Shown one piece after another: positions 1,207 to 15,799 of a stretch of DNA of 22,977 nucleotides (within the stretch, counting starts at the first letter, position 1; every line of letters begins with the position of its first letter). The translations under genes and the position numbers were made by a program. Origin of the DNA: a virus; IMG/VR virus record IMGVR_UViG_3300006805_000174, positions 1-22,977 of that record. One strand, given 5' to 3'. Under the pieces are notes generated by a model, which ran no database searches, was not told the DNA's origin, and saw only the letters and a program-made list of their open reading frames with translations.

Positions 1207-1994
1207 ACAACCCACTCAAACGCGGCCAAGGCGATGAACGTAGATCACATGCTTTTGGTGATCGTAGTGAAGAGCAAGGAGCAGAAAAGTCAAGGACATC
1301 ACGATAGGTGATTATCTACATGACTACTCAATGTTCGTCTCTACCAAGCTAACGTTCGAGCTACGCAGTAGCGACAGGCTGTAGTACAGAGCATGTAGCA
1401 TGATGACCGACCATGTATAGCGAACATTGTGATCTAGCACATTGTCAATTGCTCCTTGAGTTTTGTGCGTATCCGCGTTACAATTTGTGGTACCCACACC
1501 AATTACGGGTAATGGTTCATGGACAGCTACTACGGATGTTTGATCCTGACAGGCAGTCACGCTGTCCACGTTGGTATGAGTGACCGACCATCGGGAGGTC
1601 ATACACTGCGCGTAAGCGCACATCGTAACCAGTAGATTGTGCGTAGCATCTAACATCAACCGCACCTGTGCGTTACAAGTAGTTGATTGTCTGCAACGAG
1701 CTAGGATGACTTGTATTAGCATAGGTATGTCCATGTATAGGGAGACTTGCGATCGTCCAATACAGAGCGATTGTGAAAGGATTAGAGGCATGTACATAGA
1801 GGGAGACAGCCTGTATTATTCTGAAGACAAAGGAGGGATGAATGTGAGGGAGAGGATTGTTTATATTGTTGTGTGAAACAGACACTGTTGTAAATACACC
1901 ACACTGGGGGATTGAAGGAGATTTATTTAATGAAGGGGGGTGGGGGGAAACTTTAAAACTGTAGTTGTTTACGAGTGGCACCTTGCTAAAATTT

Positions 1995-2162
1995 TTATAT
2001 TTTTCTGAAACAAGTCGATTGAGGGGGACTATTAATGTAGCTTGACTCGCTGCTCGGTTGGTTTGTTGTACCCAACCTCGCGTGGGGGCTGTAGTCTATG
2101 CCCCCTATAACTACTATAATATAAAAACATATATAGTTATTAGTTCGTAATATATAAACCAT
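1995..2162 (-). CDS. Doubtful small ORF, first after the leftward promoter (55 aa)
   Basis: Leftward frame from ATG 2162-2160 to TAA 1997-1995. It has an AGGAG Shine-Dalgarno (2171-2167) only four bases from the ATG. The predicted peptide has a hydrophobic segment (YICFYIIVVIGGI) and a polar Ser/Pro-rich tail. The Shine-Dalgarno and start codon lie inside the nested hairpin at 2134-2179, which would hide them from ribosomes. The hydrophobic half may merely reflect AT-rich DNA. I list it because it is the first candidate in a strong transcript, not because coding is established. Confidence 0.18.
   Translation of the reverse strand: MVYILRTNNYICFYIIVVIGGIDYSPHARLGTTNQPSSESSYINSPPQSTCFRKI
2056..2105. 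other. Two tandem GC-rich hairpins with 10-nt loops
   Basis: GGTTGG (2056-2061) pairs with CCAACC (2072-2077), and GGGGGC (2084-2089) pairs with GCCCCC (2100-2105). Each has a 10-nt loop, and 6 bp separate the two. They stand at the border between the moderate-GC leader and the AT-rich core. No T-run follows on either strand, so these are not standard terminators. They could be structural parts of a leftward leader RNA or protein-binding sites. Confidence 0.4.
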
Positions 2163-2179
2163 ATTACTCCTAATAACTA
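2134..2179. repeat. Nested inverted repeat (cruciform or hairpin) in the AT-rich core
   Basis: Outer arms TAGTTATTAG (2134-2143) and CTAATAACTA (2170-2179) are perfect 10-bp complements. Inside them GTAATAT (2147-2153) and ATATTAC (2161-2167) are perfect 7-bp complements around a 7-nt loop. Only 3 and 2 unpaired bases separate the two helices. Either strand can fold. On the leftward transcript it contains an AGGAG and an AUG. Confidence 0.6.
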
Positions 2180-2256
2180 ATAATACTAAATATATATCCA
2201 ATAATATAAAAGACATATTATTGTCTATATATTAAGTATTATATATAATAGATTTT

Positions 2257-2285
2257 ATTATACACTACTTTGTCTTATATGTCAA
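2257..2285 (-). promoter_or_regulatory. Leftward sigma70 promoter, full consensus
   Basis: On the minus strand TTGACA (2285-2280) and TATAAT (2262-2257) are separated by exactly 17 bp, a full consensus match. Predicted transcription start is near 2250. It would drive the leader region and the leftward genes from 1176 to 1, and it is divergent from the 2341 promoter with 55 bp between the -35 boxes. Confidence 0.85.
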
Positions 2286-2340
2286 TAGATAATCTTGGTC
2301 TTATATAAATATTTATTTCGTCTTCCAAATAAGATAATGC

Positions 2341-2369
2341 TTGACTTTTATTAATTGTTGTGATATAAT
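2341..2369 (+). promoter_or_regulatory. Rightward sigma70 promoter with extended -10, ahead of the packaging/head operon
   Basis: TTGACT (2341-2346), 17-bp spacer, TATAAT (2364-2369), with TG at 2361-2362 making an extended -10. Predicted start is near 2376, about 40 nt before the terminase small subunit start. The heptamer AGATAAT occurs just upstream (2332-2338) and again at 2287-2293, a possible regulator repeat. The same design recurs at 16594 and 22088. Confidence 0.85.
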
Positions 2370-2378
2370 GTTAGTATA

Positions 2379-2396
2379 GTAACAATTTAATGTTAC
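2379..2396 (+). promoter_or_regulatory. Inverted repeat at the transcript start, candidate operator or 5' hairpin
   Basis: GTAACA (2379-2384) and TGTTAC (2391-2396) are perfect complements with a 6-bp centre. They lie at about +3 to +20 of the 2341 promoter. This position suits a repressor operator or a stabilising 5' hairpin; the binding protein is unknown. Confidence 0.4.
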
Positions 2397-2415
2397 ATTG
2401 TCTGAGGAGATACTT

Positions 2416-3000
2416 GTGGGTAAATTGGTCTATATAAAGATTAACAAGACTCGTGCTGGACAGACGGGTCATTGGAAAGAAGAAAAACGAATTGAAGCTG
2501 TGACAACCTACTTGTCTACTGGTAACCAGATGGAAGTAAGTCGTTTGACGGGAGTCCCGATCAAAACGATTAACCAATGGAAATCCTCAGATTGGTGGAA
2601 GGAGATGGAAAAGAAAATCCGCTCCGAGGAAGAACAGCAATTGGATGCAAAACTCACTAAGGTTATAGACAAGACCCTAGCAAAGTTGATGGATTCAATC
2701 GAAAATGGCGATCACATTTATGATCAACGCACAGGTCAGATCAAACGTGTCCCTGCAAAATTGCGTGATCTAAACACTGCTTTTAATACAATCCTAGACA
2801 AGCGGCAGCTCATAAGAAAACAGCCAACTAAGATTGTCGAACAAACCACTACTGCTAATCAACTACAGAACCTTGCTGATCAATTCGCAAAGTTCGTACA
2901 AAAAACTCTACCTGAGCCTGAACCAATGCATTACATTGAGGGTGATACGGTTATTCAACAAGAGGACGGGACGTATGCAGTTGCTGACAAAGATTTGTAA
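2416..3000 (+). CDS. Terminase small subunit-like HTH protein
   Basis: Probable DNA-recognition subunit of the packaging motor, first gene of the rightward operon and upstream of the large terminase gene. The start is chosen as GTG 2416 because GAGGAG (2404-2409) lies six bases upstream. A TTG at 2398 in the same frame has no Shine-Dalgarno. The 194-residue product has an N-terminal helix-turn-helix (RLTGVPIKTINQWKSSDWW, roughly residues 44-62), a Lys/Glu-rich helical middle that could oligomerise (EKKIRSEEEQQLDAKL), and an acidic tail beginning around PEPEPMHYIEGD. HTH plus central oligomerisation helices is the usual small-terminase layout. The last 26 bases overlap the HNH gene. Position and fold support the call; sequence similarity in this family is generally weak. 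Confidence 0.7.
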   Translation: MGKLVYIKINKTRAGQTGHWKEEKRIEAVTTYLSTGNQMEVSRLTGVPIKTINQWKSSDWWKEMEKKIRSEEEQQLDAKLTKVIDKTLAKLMDSIENGDHIYDQRTGQIKRVPAKLRDLNTAFNTILDKRQLIRKQPTKIVEQTTTANQLQNLADQFAKFVQKTLPEPEPMHYIEGDTVIQQEDGTYAVADKDL

Positions 3001-3409
3001 GAAGTGTGGAATAGATAAACCACATTCAGAATATAGTCACAAACGTGCCAAAGGACGTAAGCCCTCTTTGCAACCTCGCTGTAAAACGTGTGCTTCGGAA
3101 GATACAAAGTTGTGGAGAGATTCACAAAGTATCGACAGATTAAAAGATCTATATCTACAACGAACATACGGTGTAACATTACAGTGGTATCAAGACACAC
3201 TAGCTCTACAACATAATTCATGTCCATTATGTAATACGGCGTTTACCTTCCATGGTGAACTGAATGCTGACTCTCCTGTAGTTGACCATTGTCACACAAC
3301 CGGAAAAGTTCGTGGCATTATTTGTAATGAATGCAATCGTGGGTTAGGATACTTTCACGATAACCCAACGGCTTTGCGTAATGCAGCCATCTATTTAGAG
3401 GAGAACTAA
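2975..3409 (+). CDS. HNH endonuclease, endonuclease VII-like (copy 1)
   Basis: Free-standing nuclease of 144 aa with the endonuclease VII/HNH architecture. Cysteine pairs C8/C11 and C36/C39 form an N-terminal zinc-ribbon-like part. C83/C86 and C117/C120 flank the catalytic VVDHCHTTGKVRG (D104, H105, H107), followed by N121 and the usual GLGYFHDN tail. ATG 2975 is chosen because GAGG lies about nine bases upstream and the zinc motif follows directly; the frame stays open further upstream but lacks a good start. It overlaps the end of the small terminase gene by 26 bp in another frame. Such genes are usually homing endonucleases wedged between phage genes; a resolvase role is less likely given three HNH genes here. 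No recoded copy of a neighbouring gene edge was found at this one. Confidence 0.85.
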   Translation: MQLLTKICKKCGIDKPHSEYSHKRAKGRKPSLQPRCKTCASEDTKLWRDSQSIDRLKDLYLQRTYGVTLQWYQDTLALQHNSCPLCNTAFTFHGELNADSPVVDHCHTTGKVRGIICNECNRGLGYFHDNPTALRNAAIYLEEN

Positions 3410-3419
3410 AATTCCTTTC

Positions 3420-3722
3420 ATGAAAAATGGCAAGCGCGACTATAAGGCCGAGTTAAATTGGGAACACACCAAGAAGAAGAACCGTGTCAAGGACCGCGCA
3501 CAGCGTAATGGAGCTAGAGCAAAAGTGGCAAAAGCTAATGGTACTACCGCAACAAAGTTGAAGGGTGACGTTGGTCACAAGAAAGCAGTAAGCAAAGGTG
3601 GAGCTAATGGTTTAGCTAATCTCTTTGTCCAGAACCCCGGCCAGAACCGGTCATTTGCAAGGAACAAAGATGGATCAATGCGCAGTGAAACCAGCAAGCG
3701 GGAACGTAGCAAAAAAGCCTGA
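3420..3722 (+). CDS. Small basic HNH-like protein next to the terminase
   Basis: A 100-residue Lys/Arg-rich protein. The stretch from residue 50 (DVGHKKAVSKGGANGLANL) followed by NRSFARNKDGS (76-86) resembles small HNH proteins that often sit beside terminase genes, where the typical motif is DVDHxKPLSKGG. Here the second Asp is Gly (G52), although H53 is kept, so catalysis may be lost. In related phages an HNH protein near the terminase assists DNA cleavage during packaging; this is family knowledge, not shown here. The ribosome-binding site is poor, since GAGGAG at 3398-3403 is 16 bases away. The 3' end overlaps the large terminase gene by 53 bp. Confidence 0.6.
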   Translation: MKNGKRDYKAELNWEHTKKKNRVKDRAQRNGARAKVAKANGTTATKLKGDVGHKKAVSKGGANGLANLFVQNPGQNRSFARNKDGSMRSETSKRERSKKA

Positions 3723-7270: not shown

Positions 7271-7469
7271 TTTTGAAAATTGGAAGGCAGACCCAGTAAC
7301 TAAGGTCTTCTTCCAAGCAACGCGAGAACGTATTGAAGATGCAAAAGATATGCTATCCGTACAAGCAGGTTTAGATGTTAACCAAGACAATTATGTTCGT
7401 GGGATCATCCAAGCCTATCGAGAGTTGCAAGATTTTCGTATTGATGATTTGGAAGGAGAGATGTCTTGA
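7254..7469 (+). CDS. Small conserved phage protein between portal and GroES
   Basis: A 71-residue acidic protein starting MISPSDFENWKADPVTKVFF, with predicted helices and a central GLDVNQDNYVRGIIQAYREL segment. Similar small proteins (a D-F-x-x-W start and a G-x-x-x-A-Y-R-E/D motif) follow portal genes in related phages, but no function is known to me. The ATG at 7254 lies inside the portal gene's end and overlaps it by 17 bp. The stop overlaps the TTG start of the next gene (TTGA), so translation is probably coupled in both directions. Confidence 0.75.
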   Translation: MISPSDFENWKADPVTKVFFQATRERIEDAKDMLSVQAGLDVNQDNYVRGIIQAYRELQDFRIDDLEGEMS

Positions 7470-7765
7470 TTACACCTCTCCTGCACACAATCTTAATTAA
7501 GCCTGACGATGTTGAAACAAAGACAGCTAGTGGGATTGTAATTCCAGATATGGTTACAGAGAAAGAACGCAAAGCAGTTGAGTATAGAACAGTTATTACA
7601 GTTGGGCCGCGCGCCTTCATTGATTATGGCAGTGACCCATCTATTCTGAAAGGCGGTGATCGTGTCTCCTTCGCACGCTATAGCGGCAAGGTAATTAAGG
7701 ATGTGGACGGAACAGAGTTTGTTCTAGTTAACGACATAGACATACTTGCTAAAGTAGATGTCTAA
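7466..7765 (+). CDS. GroES-like co-chaperonin (Cpn10 fold), TTG start
   Basis: A 99-residue protein with the Cpn10 layout: an N-terminal strand PLLHTILIKPDD, a mobile-loop region TKTASGIVIPD (residues 18-28), a central VGPR and KGGDRVSFARYSG (62-74), and the C-terminal strand EFVLVNDIDILAKV. Phage co-chaperonins such as T4 gp31 replace host GroES so that GroEL can fold the capsid protein; the location among head genes fits. The TTG start is supported by AAGGAG (7452-7457) eight bases upstream and by overlap with the preceding stop. The last codons are unusual: DIDILAKV (7733-7756) is repeated, recoded, at the end of the following HNH gene, so this 3' end is probably a replacement supplied by that element. 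Confidence 0.88.
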   Translation: MITPLLHTILIKPDDVETKTASGIVIPDMVTEKERKAVEYRTVITVGPRAFIDYGSDPSILKGGDRVSFARYSGKVIKDVDGTEFVLVNDIDILAKVDV

Positions 7766-8219
7766 CTGCATTGTTTGTGGTACTAGTACAGTTTGTGGAA
7801 CAGGAACACATAAAAAGAAATCTCGTAAGTATTGTTCAAATGATTGTATTAAGAAAGCCTGTTACTTACGTAACAAAGCAAAATACACCGAAGCAACCAA
7901 AAACTGGATAAACACATATCCAGAAAAACGAAGACAACACTCTGAAAAATATCGGCGTTTAAATAAGCACTATTATGCACAATATAGAAGTGCTTATAGA
8001 TATAGATTGAAGCAGGCTACCCCTTTGTGGAGTAGTATTGAAGACATTATATCTGTGTATCAAGAAGCGGAATATTTTCAATTAGAGGTTGATCATATAA
8101 TTCCATTAAAGCATCCATTAGTTTGTGGATTGCATGTGTGGGAAAATTTGCAGTTGTTATCTAGAAGTGCTAATGCACACAAATCAAATAAATTTGATAT
8201 TGATATTCTAGCAAAAGTT
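7733..8219 (+). repeat. Recoded duplicate of the GroES-like gene's 3' end flanking an HNH gene
   Basis: The octapeptide DIDILAKV is encoded at 7733-7756 (end of the GroES-like gene) and again at 8196-8219 (end of the HNH gene). Seven of eight codons differ, each only at the third base (for example GAC/GAT, ATA/ATT, CTT/CTA); AAA is unchanged. Protein identity is complete while DNA identity is 17 of 24. The distal copy is followed by GAGGAATAAG, which serves as ribosome-binding site for the scaffold gene, so the distal copy is likely the ancestral end. Confidence 0.85.
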
Positions 8220-8228
8220 GAGGAATAA
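7758..8228 (+). CDS. HNH homing endonuclease fused to the displaced GroES tail
   Basis: Free-standing 156-aa nuclease. An N-terminal zinc-finger-like region has C4, C7, C13, C26 and C30, then a very basic Lys/Arg/Tyr helix. The HNH core is LEVDHIIPLKHPLVCGLHVW with D112 and H113, followed by N130 and the family end NANAHKSNKF-like stretch to F146. Typical relatives end near NKF; here ten extra residues follow (DIDILAKVEE) that copy the end of the GroES-like protein. Its ATG overlaps the GroES-like stop by 8 bp. Two lines counted inside the gene are about 28-35% GC against about 45% in the scaffold gene, which supports acquisition. It differs in family from the HNH genes at 2975 and 15106. Confidence 0.88.
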   Translation: MSNCIVCGTSTVCGTGTHKKKSRKYCSNDCIKKACYLRNKAKYTEATKNWINTYPEKRRQHSEKYRRLNKHYYAQYRSAYRYRLKQATPLWSSIEDIISVYQEAEYFQLEVDHIIPLKHPLVCGLHVWENLQLLSRSANAHKSNKFDIDILAKVEE

Positions 8229-8230
8229 GA

Positions 8231-9034
8231 ATGAGCGAAGAGCTACAAGTATCTGCCCCAGAGCAGATTGAAGCACCAGTCGAATCAACCCCCGTCGAGT
8301 CTACTCCGCAAGTAGATTCATATGAAGATGATGCCCGTGCACAGGGTTGGAAGCCTAAAGAAGAATATGAAGGTGATCCAAACAAGTGGCGTCCTGCAAA
8401 GGAATTTGTAGAACGTGGTGAACTCTTTGGTAAGATTGATACGATGGGCAAGGAACTTAAGGAAACCCGCAAGGCCCTTAAGATGCTACAAGAACATCAC
8501 ACAAAGGTAAAAGAGACTGAATATAATCGCGCAGTCGTCGAACTAAAAGCATTACAAAAGCGTCATCTCGAAGAAGGTAACTCGGATGGTTATCTCGAAA
8601 CTACTGAACTCTTACACGATCTAAAGACTGAACAGAAAGCTCGTGAGGTTGTTAATGAAACTGCTCCGCCAAAAGTGGACCAACGTTTCGTTGATTGGGT
8701 AGCCAACAATCGTTGGTATGAAAAAGAAGTTGAGATGCGCGAGTATGCTGATGTTGTCGGTAACGGTTACGCTGCACGTAATCCGGGTATTGATCCTGAA
8801 GATGTTCTGGTGTATGTTACCAAGCAGGTGCGTAAGCAATTCGCAGATAAGTTTGTAAATCCAAATAGAACTAAACCTTCAGCAGTTGAAGGGGCCAGTA
8901 CAGGGGCAGCTAACAAGAGTTCATTCGAACTTACCGAAGATGAACGGCGTGTCATGAATACGTTTGTCCGTCAGGGTGTTATGTCCAAAGAAGAATATAT
9001 TGCACAAGTTAAGCAAATGAAAGGTGTCAAATGA
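8231..9034 (+). CDS. Scaffolding protein
   Basis: Internal scaffold guiding capsid assembly, 267 aa. The acidic, Pro/Glu-rich N-terminus (residues 1-30) leads to DARAQGWKPKEEYEGDPNKWRPA, a motif I associate with scaffold proteins of this phage group. Then follow a long charged coiled coil (about 70-145) and a basic C-terminal helix (EEYIAQVKQMKGVK), the part that in scaffolds usually contacts the coat. It lies upstream of the capsid gene, as expected. Its Shine-Dalgarno (GAGGAA, 8220-8225) lies inside the end of the HNH gene, within the duplicated GroES tail. The 3' end overlaps the next gene by four bases (ATGA). Confidence 0.82.
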   Translation: MSEELQVSAPEQIEAPVESTPVESTPQVDSYEDDARAQGWKPKEEYEGDPNKWRPAKEFVERGELFGKIDTMGKELKETRKALKMLQEHHTKVKETEYNRAVVELKALQKRHLEEGNSDGYLETTELLHDLKTEQKAREVVNETAPPKVDQRFVDWVANNRWYEKEVEMREYADVVGNGYAARNPGIDPEDVLVYVTKQVRKQFADKFVNPNRTKPSAVEGASTGAANKSSFELTEDERRVMNTFVRQGVMSKEEYIAQVKQMKGVK

Positions 9035-14330: not shown

Positions 14331-15032
14331 ATGAGAATTGGTTCCTTTGATGCTCAGTTACTACCATTAGGTTGGTTTGATGAGACTGCTGTTGTTGAGG
14401 GTTGGTTTGATAATTCATTAATTACCGTACCCTCTTCTGGAACAGGTGCCTACACATTAACTGCACTTAGTGGAACCTACATTCTGTCTGGTGGTACAGC
14501 AGTTTTAAAGAGAAGTAAACTTCTAGTTACAAATGGAGGTTCTTACTCCACTACAGGATCTGCTGCTAACCTATATAGAAATCGTAAACTAACTGCCCAA
14601 GGTGGAAGTTATAACTACACTGGACAGACAGTTAACATTACATATGTTCCAGTGGCAGGCGCATATTCGCTAACTGCTTTGGGTGGTGTCTATACAGTAA
14701 CAGGACAATCCAGTACGATCCTTCGTTCGAAAGTTCTGGTTGCAAGTGGTGGTAGTTATTCGTATGTTGGACAACCTGTAACCATTCTTCGCAGTAAGAG
14801 GATTGTTACTAATGGTGGTACTTATACTTTAACTGGACAGGCTGTTACAATCATCAAGACTTCTGCTGGTGGTATTGTTTGGCCGAGTCCTTCAGTTGTT
14901 CTATTGGGTACTATGTATGGACCCACAGGTATTGAATACACAGGCACAATGGATGTGTATGGATTGAAGTATGATATCACTACAGGTGATCTAGTTAAAC
15001 CACTTACAGATAAGGTTGTAATGACACTATGA
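14331..15032 (+). CDS. Beta-repeat virion protein, 233 aa
   Basis: The protein starts with a doubled WFD motif (GWFDETAVVEGWFDNSL, residues 14-30) and continues with about six tandem repeats (residues 47-180) of a 22-residue unit of the form GGSYS-x-TGQ-x-V-x-I-x-RSKxLVxN; one unit is 27 long. Such short Gly-Tyr repeats would stack as beta strands, as in fibre or surface-adhesion parts of virions. The C-terminal part (GLKYDITTGDLVKPLTDKVV) is globular and repeat-free. TGA 15030-15032 overlaps the ATG of a 12-codon stub at 15029 (ATGA). This shows that the gene originally following it was translationally coupled. Confidence 0.65.
   Translation: MRIGSFDAQLLPLGWFDETAVVEGWFDNSLITVPSSGTGAYTLTALSGTYILSGGTAVLKRSKLLVTNGGSYSTTGSAANLYRNRKLTAQGGSYNYTGQTVNITYVPVAGAYSLTALGGVYTVTGQSSTILRSKVLVASGGSYSYVGQPVTILRSKRIVTNGGTYTLTGQAVTIIKTSAGGIVWPSPSVVLLGTMYGPTGIEYTGTMDVYGLKYDITTGDLVKPLTDKVVMTL
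14469..14870 (+). repeat. Tandem 22-residue (66-bp) coding repeat
   Basis: Protein-level repeat inside the 233-aa gene: units begin at residues 47, 69, 91, 118, 140 and 162. Four full units are exactly 22 residues and the third is 27. The DNA of the units has diverged, so the array is old rather than a recent expansion. Confidence 0.65.
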
Positions 15033-15067
15033 AAAAGAATCACTATATCTCTGGTGAGTGCTCGTAA
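15029..15067 (+). pseudogene. Displaced original 5' end of the 15515 gene (12-codon stub)
   Basis: ATG 15029 overlaps the preceding stop (ATGA) and encodes MKKNHYISGECS before TAA 15065-15067. Its first ten residues match the start of the gene at 15515 (MGKNYYLSGE): 7 of 10 identical, the other three being K/G, H/Y and I/L. The DNA is identical at 20 of 30 positions, with TCT/TCA and GGT/GGC among the silent changes. The coupling with the upstream gene indicates that this was the native start before the HNH gene arrived. The stub can still be translated as a minigene. Confidence 0.75.
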
Positions 15068-15105
15068 ACTCGCTTCGTCACTGCGTTCCTTAAAGAAAGG
15101 ATTTT

Positions 15106-15522
15106 ATGGAAATTCATGAAAAGAAATGTTCTAGATGTAAAGAAGTAAAATCTCTTTCTAATTTTTCTAGAGATAAACATCATTGGTCTGGACATAAATC
15201 TGCATGTAAGGTTTGTGCTAGTTCTGACTTTTCTAAATGGAAATCGAAAAATTTAGAGAAAAGTAGACTTAGTGATAGAAAGAGACATTATATTAGAACA
15301 TACGATCTTGATCCAGAATTAGCAGAACAACTTGTACAAAATCGTGTTGGTGAGTGTAGTATCTGTGGTTCTATTGCACCATTAGTTGTCGATCATTGTC
15401 ACACTACTGGAAAAGTTCGTGGGTTTATTTGTTCGTCTTGTAACAGTGTTCTAGGATATAGCAAAGACAACATTCAAACACTTGAAAATTCAATTAATTA
15501 TTTAAGGAATTTTTATGGGTAA
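15106..15522 (+). CDS. HNH endonuclease, endonuclease VII-like (copy 2)
   Basis: Free-standing 138-aa nuclease of the same family as the one at 2975. Zinc pairs C8/C11 and C34/C37; C84/C87 and C109/C112 flank VVDHCHTTGKVRG with D96, H97 and H99, then N113 and LGYSKDN. AAAGAAAGGATTTT precedes the ATG. The 13-residue catalytic stretch is identical to copy 1 while the N-terminal parts differ. The 3' end overlaps the restored gene at 15515 by 8 bp, and AAGGAA near the HNH stop provides that gene's ribosome-binding site. Upstream lies the stub of the interrupted gene. The coding DNA is AT-rich with many A/T-ending codons. Probable homing endonuclease. Confidence 0.87.
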   Translation: MEIHEKKCSRCKEVKSLSNFSRDKHHWSGHKSACKVCASSDFSKWKSKNLEKSRLSDRKRHYIRTYDLDPELAEQLVQNRVGECSICGSIAPLVVDHCHTTGKVRGFICSSCNSVLGYSKDNIQTLENSINYLRNFYG

Positions 15523-15799
15523 AAATTATTATTTGTCAGGCGAGTTCAATGTAACGTGCGACAGATGTAGTAAAAAAATAAAAGCCCATCAAGCTAAACA
15601 CGAATGGACTGGTTTTATAGTTTGTGGTGATTGTTGGGAGCCAAGACATCCACAAGATTTTGTCAAGGCGCAATCTGATAAAATCACTGTGCCTTTTACT
15701 AGACCCATTCCTGAATATGTATTTATTGTGGTTCCATATAATTTTTATTGGGACCCCGGATATACGATTTCAGGTTATATTGATCAGGATAATACATAA
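15515..15799 (+). CDS. Conserved zinc-ribbon phage protein with a replaced 5' end
   Basis: A 94-residue protein starting MGKNYYLSGEFNVTCDRCSK. C15/C18 and C37/C40 (VCGDC) form a zinc ribbon, and WEPRHPQDFVKAQSDKITVP is a motif I recognise from small proteins widespread in podovirus structural regions; their exact role is unknown to me. A recoded version of residues 1-10 exists 486 bp upstream as the stub at 15029. I infer that the first codons here were supplied by the HNH element. The body of the gene (from FNV onward) would be the original. The final stop overlaps the next ATG (TAATG). Confidence 0.75.
   Translation: MGKNYYLSGEFNVTCDRCSKKIKAHQAKHEWTGFIVCGDCWEPRHPQDFVKAQSDKITVPFTRPIPEYVFIVVPYNFYWDPGYTISGYIDQDNT

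Follow-up and report, generated by a model that had tools for sequence, protein, structure and literature searches.

The stretch analysed here, referred to as a whole as the window, corresponds to an IMG/VR virus record 22,977 bases long and contains TerS-like, terminase, portal, GroES-like, HNH, scaffold and capsid genes. The following features lie at the GroES-like gene:

7466..7732, + strand: native body of the GroES-like co-chaperonin gene (Pfam Cpn10, 2.7e-17; 87-88% identical in the relatives L001 and L002)
7733..7765, + strand: replacement tail of the GroES-like gene, DIDILAKVDV and stop (from codon comparison; predicted last beta strand, residues 93-97)
7758..7765, + strand: 8-nt overlap ATGTCTAA, with the HNH ATG over the GroES stop
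7758..8195, + strand: HNH endonuclease proper, to ...KSNKF (Pfam HNH above cut-off; PHROG endonuclease VII/HNH; low GC)
8196..8228, + strand: captured native GroES tail, DIDILAKVEE and stop, which is the C-terminus of the HNH protein (matched by L001 and L002, including the scaffold junction)
8231..9034, + strand: scaffold-like gene, which directly follows GroES in HNH-free relatives

The full GroES-like gene (7466-7765) ends VND-IDILAKVDV, the full HNH reading frame (7758-8228) ends SNKF-DIDILAKVEE, and the insertion point lies between GroES codons N89 and D90. The proximal copy of the tail (7733-7765) reads GAC ATA GAC ATA CTT GCT AAA GTA GAT GTC TAA and the distal copy (8196-8228) reads GAT ATT GAT ATT CTA GCA AAA GTT GAG GAA TAA. 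Direct codon comparison confirmed the observation of the first-pass annotation that eight residues are shared and that seven of the eight codons are unlike, with every change at the third base. The proximal tail contains two ATA codons, a codon not used in the GroES body or in the portal, scaffold and capsid genes, and the GC content of the HNH gene is 33% compared with approximately 44% in its neighbours. In alignment, the tail of the GroES-like protein falls on the C-terminus of GroES chains of solved structure, and it is predicted to form the last beta strand at residues 93-97 (of five models, only the best was confident, with a 13-sequence alignment). The tail thus matters for the protein, as an insertion that brought no replacement would delete this predicted strand.

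As in free-standing phage homing endonuclease genes, the catalytic domain is of the HNH or endonuclease VII type, and neither an intron (by Rfam) nor an intein (by the in-frame stop) surrounds the gene. Residues D112, H113, N130 and N139 of the HNH protein are conserved among aligned homologues. These homologues stop at or just past N-K-x, except for those that carry captured gene ends, which bears out the earlier statement that the usual end point of such HNH proteins is close to NKF.

Comparison with HNH-free relatives decided which of the two tails is native. A viral-contig search first found 14 GroES relatives, approximately 12 of them distinct (L003/L004 and L007/L008 are identical in the GroES gene), and in all 14 loci the HNH gene is missing at this position and GroES runs into the scaffold gene. 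The GroES proteins of the nearest relatives, L001 and L002, end DIDILAKIEE and DIDILAKIGE, respectively. In the DNA of the eight codons, L001 has 83% identity with the distal copy and 71% with the proximal copy, and the corresponding values for L002 are 88% and 62%; across the stop codon and the beginning of the scaffold gene, L001 matches the distal copy at 84% and the proximal copy at 53%. Because the closest HNH-free relatives match the distal DNA, the distal copy is the original GroES end and the proximal copy the replacement, and the comparison also bears out an insertion inside the last GroES codons, both as first proposed. Two observations named beforehand as contrary to this reading, an HNH-free relative whose tail matches 7733-7765 and a DIDILAKV-tailed HNH protein away from a GroES gene, were looked for and not found. 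The description of the tail as silently recoded held in part: it is a replacement, but amino-acid changes occur as well in most cases, and the near-saturated codons would also result from a diverged donor allele, not only from silent recoding of the phage's own codons.

As in gene-end swaps of the mitochondrial type, the native end is retained beyond the nuclease gene, and the replacement end is near-identical in protein and diverged in DNA. No donor allele with the exact replacement tail (GACATAGACATACTTGCTAAAGTAGATGT) occurred among the fetched loci, and the end is too short for a tree. The viral-contig search for this exact HNH elsewhere yielded no close relative, and a DNA search for phages carrying the junction gave no match. 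Judged by sequence comparison, the duplicated gene end is real and above chance, and the HNH-free relatives are the decisive evidence.

An independent second case was found at the same GroES codon in L124; it comes from a distant phage in which the genes are arranged in the same order, and its GroES is 41% identical to that of the window. Its HNH is 38-40% identical to the window HNH; its GroES ends NDEDLICVIKH and its HNH ends SNKF-DEDLICIIKG. In L205, a relative of L124 (71%), the HNH is missing, and the scaffold gene comes immediately after a GroES that ends NDADLICVIKG. In the window and L124, the replacement tails track each phage's own protein and the nuclease lineage retains its target position. 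The nuclease is thus sporadic at a fixed site, with nuclease-free alleles (14 GroES loci without it, L124 with it).

The window also contains a mirror-image cassette, located at the head of a gene that we call gene D:

15029..15067, + strand: stranded native head of gene D, MKKNHYISGECS and stop (from comparison with the HNH-free L025 and L027)
15106..15522, + strand: second cassette, an endonuclease VII-type HNH gene (Pfam Endonuclease_7, 1.5e-19; G005 has a copy with 87% identity at this site)
15515..15547, + strand: replacement head of gene D, MGKNYYLSGEF (overlaps the HNH stop by 8 nt, ATGGGTAA)
15515..15799, + strand: gene D, the target of the second cassette (no Pfam or PHROG match)

Gene D starts MGKNYYLSGEFNVTC in the window, and in the HNH-free relatives it starts MSKNHFVSGGWNVTC (L025) and MKKNFFVSGEWNITC (L027). 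G005 (L035) shares the nuclease, the stranded head and the replacement head with the window. In G004 (L039), a different, unrelated HNH lies at gene D; its N-terminus is the captured native head MSKNHYVSGDWNIT, and the replacement head reads MSKNYYVSGEFNVT. Between the window and G005, 83% DNA identity begins exactly at the stranded head (15029) and continues through the HNH into gene D, compared with mostly 66-75% in the rest of the alignment (81% in the capsid gene), which fits a horizontal transfer of the gene D cassette between diverged phages. In each of the three gene D replacement heads, F takes the position of a W that is present in all HNH-free relatives read, two distant phages among them. 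Because tryptophan has one codon, a DNA change at this position demands an amino-acid change; the substitution is no more than suggestive. Between the stranded head and the nuclease (15068-15105, and L035 1463-1500) lies a conserved stretch, CTCGTAAACTCGC..CGTCACT.CGTT, which probably belongs to the mirror element.

Further HNH genes were observed in the head modules of these phages. At the TerS-like gene of the window, two features were recorded:

2975..3409, + strand: third HNH gene, of the endonuclease VII type, located where the TerS-like gene ends (Pfam; TerS tail shortened)
3410..3445, + strand: possible native TerS tail remnant, NSFHEKWQARL and stop (by eye against L031, ending ...VHDKRET and stop, and the L032 HNH, ending ...YHSIHEKRKT and stop)

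In this region (2398-3445), TerS is shorter than in HNH-free relatives, in which its tail overlaps the next gene, and in L032 the nuclease reads into a stretch resembling the possible remnant. The tail is too poorly conserved to call a replacement, and the site was rejected as a replacement-end case. A small gene with a DVGHKKAVSKGG motif (3420-3722) lies beside the terminase gene in the window and relatives, and its product looks like another HNH-like protein, with no Pfam match. In relatives, HNH genes occupy further head-module junctions (L037 1489-1926, L042 1498-1974, L040 1525-1869), being located before GroES, before the capsid gene and, as a degenerate gene, after TerS; a duplicated end was not seen at the L042 HNH before the capsid gene. 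An apparently recoded GroES head beside an endonuclease VII gene in L007/L008, which differs from L009 at 9 of 10 codons, was ruled out because HNH-free pairs differ to the same degree (L005/L010, 9 of 10).

To survey other loci, we retrieved the 80 top-ranking viral-contig loci with each of two nuclease alignments and sought the upstream gene end or the downstream gene start again across the nuclease, with a cut-off score of 36. Scores of at least 36 were obtained for 14 of 154 testable HNH loci compared with 6 of 399 other genes, and by eye the control matches were low-complexity, tandem-paralogue or out-of-frame. Protein similarity is the criterion by which cases are identified, and a short head or tail on its own scores modestly; the window GroES pair scored 39 in this test, with p ~0.01 in a broader mismatched-pair test. 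Two of the 14 HNH matches (L127 and L081) and also L246 were rejected as zinc-finger similarity between neighbouring or tandem HNH genes, L155 duplicates L154, and L162 scores just under the cut-off. The survey resulted in eight further distinct loci with replacement ends:

L084: major capsid tail (29 codons, 28 residues identical, 77% DNA)
L086: cytosine methylase tail
L124: GroES tail
L162: tail-fibre tail
L076: methylase head
L062: DNA polymerase head
L154/L155: tail-fibre-like head
L088: head of an unknown gene behind the portal gene

The nuclease reading frame includes the captured native end in L086, L124 and L162 as well as in L039, L154 and L088. Overlap between the nuclease and the replacement end occurs at 10 of 12 loci, with a length of 8 nt at 7 of these, and suggests that nuclease and replacement end belong together as a unit, the insertion junction being at the opposite boundary. 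No Rfam intron was detected in the window or the surveyed case loci. Endonuclease VII-like genes at 80 genome-collection loci, mostly from Streptomyces, yielded no convincing case. In L084, an inverted repeat (GGAGCCTG...CAGGCTCC; 1415-1494) lies between the capsid replacement tail and the nuclease and is possibly a terminator carried along with the foreign end. In L242 (Cyanophage Cy-LDV1, 1501-3200), a methyltransferase gene is followed by an endonuclease VII gene, the same pairing as in L086 and L076, and this locus could be a replacement-end case in a named phage.

We regard the feature at the GroES site as probably a free-standing homing endonuclease cassette composed of an HNH gene and a replacement gene end. 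As far as sequence comparison reaches, it establishes the anatomy, the native copy, the recurrence at many genes and in many unrelated phages, and the transfer of the mirror cassette between diverged phages. The cassette lies in GroES between N89 and D90, where the replacement tail would restore the last beta strand and supplies a stop codon overlapping the start of the nuclease gene; at the other side, the reading frame of the nuclease continues into the stranded native tail and borrows its stop. From known free-standing phage homing enzymes, one of which has the endonuclease VII motif (PMC6083498), we infer its cleavage specificity, immunity and drive: the nuclease would cleave the intact GroES end in a co-infecting phage, into which the cassette would then be copied by repair. 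The DNA-distinct replacement would keep GroES working, should be poorly cut and should recombine poorly with the native copy; immunity to self-cleavage is plausible. The replacement probably started out as the terminal part of a diverged allele that travelled with the nuclease, which is the simpler account, and selection against self-cleavage may in addition have maintained or refined it. Because no close relative of the GroES-site HNH was found, its mobility is suggested by analogy with the mirror cassette.

The alternative that survives best, to which we give a little under an even chance, is that only a foreign end was swapped in: the nuclease lay behind the GroES gene of a diverged phage and brought the natural tail of that gene, with no selected recoding and no immunity, through one-sided homologous recombination and an illegitimate right-hand junction. 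The same explanation, transfer of a foreign end, is offered by the authors for the mitochondria of Allomyces and Glomus (PMC3630166). In the 12 pairs of replacement and native ends, 74 of 110 same-residue codons differ, compared with 71.6 expected from uniform codons (P=0.35) and 61.8 expected from genome codon usage (P=0.008), the latter model ignoring the composition difference between nuclease donor and host. The replacement ends are at or slightly above synonymous saturation. Because the codon-usage model ignores that difference, the excess over its expectation is no proof of selection, and because the codon differences lie within uniform-codon saturation, they do not demonstrate selection for uncleavability. 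Such near-saturation favours a foreign end, as do the amino-acid differences between copies that most pairs also show (DV for EE; F for W in the gene D heads), and the natural pair L001/L002 is already 5 of 8 codons apart with identical protein. In L084, moreover, a short inverted repeat comes after the replacement tail, and by eye the same seems to hold for other capsid genes of the set. However, the tails follow the local protein (ILAKV in the window, LICVIK in L124), so that the donors would have to be protein-close and DNA-saturated. The L084 pair, with 28 of 29 residues identical and 68% synonymous change, is the most protein-conserved of the non-identical capsid tails compared, which also speaks against a mere swap, although one natural capsid-tail pair comes near it (26/29, 60%). 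The three gene D replacement heads with F, where the HNH-free relatives read have the single-codon W, point in the same direction.

That the gene end was tandemly duplicated when the HNH inserted, one copy then drifting neutrally, would explain why two copies flank the insert. We consider this improbable because the diverged copy is the proximal one, which is translated as GroES, and because a target-site duplication starts identical, whereas the 12 pairs together are saturated at synonymous sites. Still less probable is a group I/II intron or intein, in which the HNH region would be spliced out and GroES would use the distal tail. A site within the conserved end of a conserved gene is indeed intron-like, but no Rfam match to an intron core was obtained across 7600-8300 even at E 5, an in-frame stop closes GroES before the HNH, which has its own start, the insert is barely larger than the HNH reading frame, and a complete replacement tail would be superfluous. 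Chance or convergence, conceivable for a short motif with a single-pair p of ~0.01, is refuted for practical purposes because HNH-free relatives match the distal copy, and the repeat of the arrangement in L124, the mirror case in the same window and the excess over control genes also argue against it.

The proposed homing cassette resembles several known systems. Mobile-ORF gene hybrids have been described for atp6 of Allomyces and atp6, atp9, cox2 and nad3 of Glomus in fungal mitochondria; their replacement ends are 94-100% identical to a close relative in protein and 64-81% in DNA, compared with 91-98% for the native end (PMC3630166). As in the window, an endonuclease gene lies behind a replacement C-terminal end, with the native end left downstream. 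Those hybrids concern fungal organelles, a LAGLIDADG endonuclease (named for atp6) and, in the parts of that report considered, C-terminal ends only, whereas the cases here are from phages, involve HNH/endonuclease VII enzymes and both gene ends, and include native ends fused to the nuclease. In phage T4, where a mobile endonuclease is linked to the split of genes 39 and 60, a phage homing nuclease likewise lies in a coding region, and a change of the host gene is proposed to block cleavage while the protein is still made; protection there is an untranslated 50-nt insert bypassed by ribosome hopping, in contrast to an alternative coding end (PMC5009743). F-CphI of cyanophage S-PM2 is also a free-standing homing enzyme with an endonuclease VII motif beside a gene that is cut in relatives, but in this collaborative homing its own copy is protected by a group I intron in psbA (PMC6083498). 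Free-standing homing genes of T4 and other phages similarly place HNH genes sporadically at essential-gene boundaries, although the accessible parts of these reports mention no replaced or captured gene end (PMC2988022, PMC10448857). The synthetic fly drive HomeR has the same layout, a homing cassette in a target gene with a re-coded 3′ end; it is an engineered Cas9 system and a parallel of design only, with no relation (PMC7968924).

Neither a phage precedent nor a head version was found in the accessible parts of the open-licence literature searched, an absence that is no proof. The C-terminal version is known from fungal mitochondria, and neither the head version nor the repeated incorporation of native ends into the nuclease seems to have been described in the literature searched. 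A homing gene of this kind can occupy coding sequence without an intron or intein, by which the ends of essential genes become targets. The arrangement accounts for peptide duplications next to HNH genes of phages that would otherwise be puzzling, and annotators may be misled by a nuclease that includes part of another protein. Target immunity becomes testable with short synthetic DNA comparing the native and replacement junctions. We put forward tentatively, as a proposition about as likely to fail as to hold and perhaps slightly more so, that phages harbour widespread natural "cut-and-rescue" cassettes, in which a nuclease would break the end of an essential gene in rivals and supply a functional, DNA-distinct end, 5′ or 3′, with selection keeping the rescue uncleavable and non-recombining. 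If this is true, such cassettes would be the natural counterpart of engineered recoded-rescue drives.
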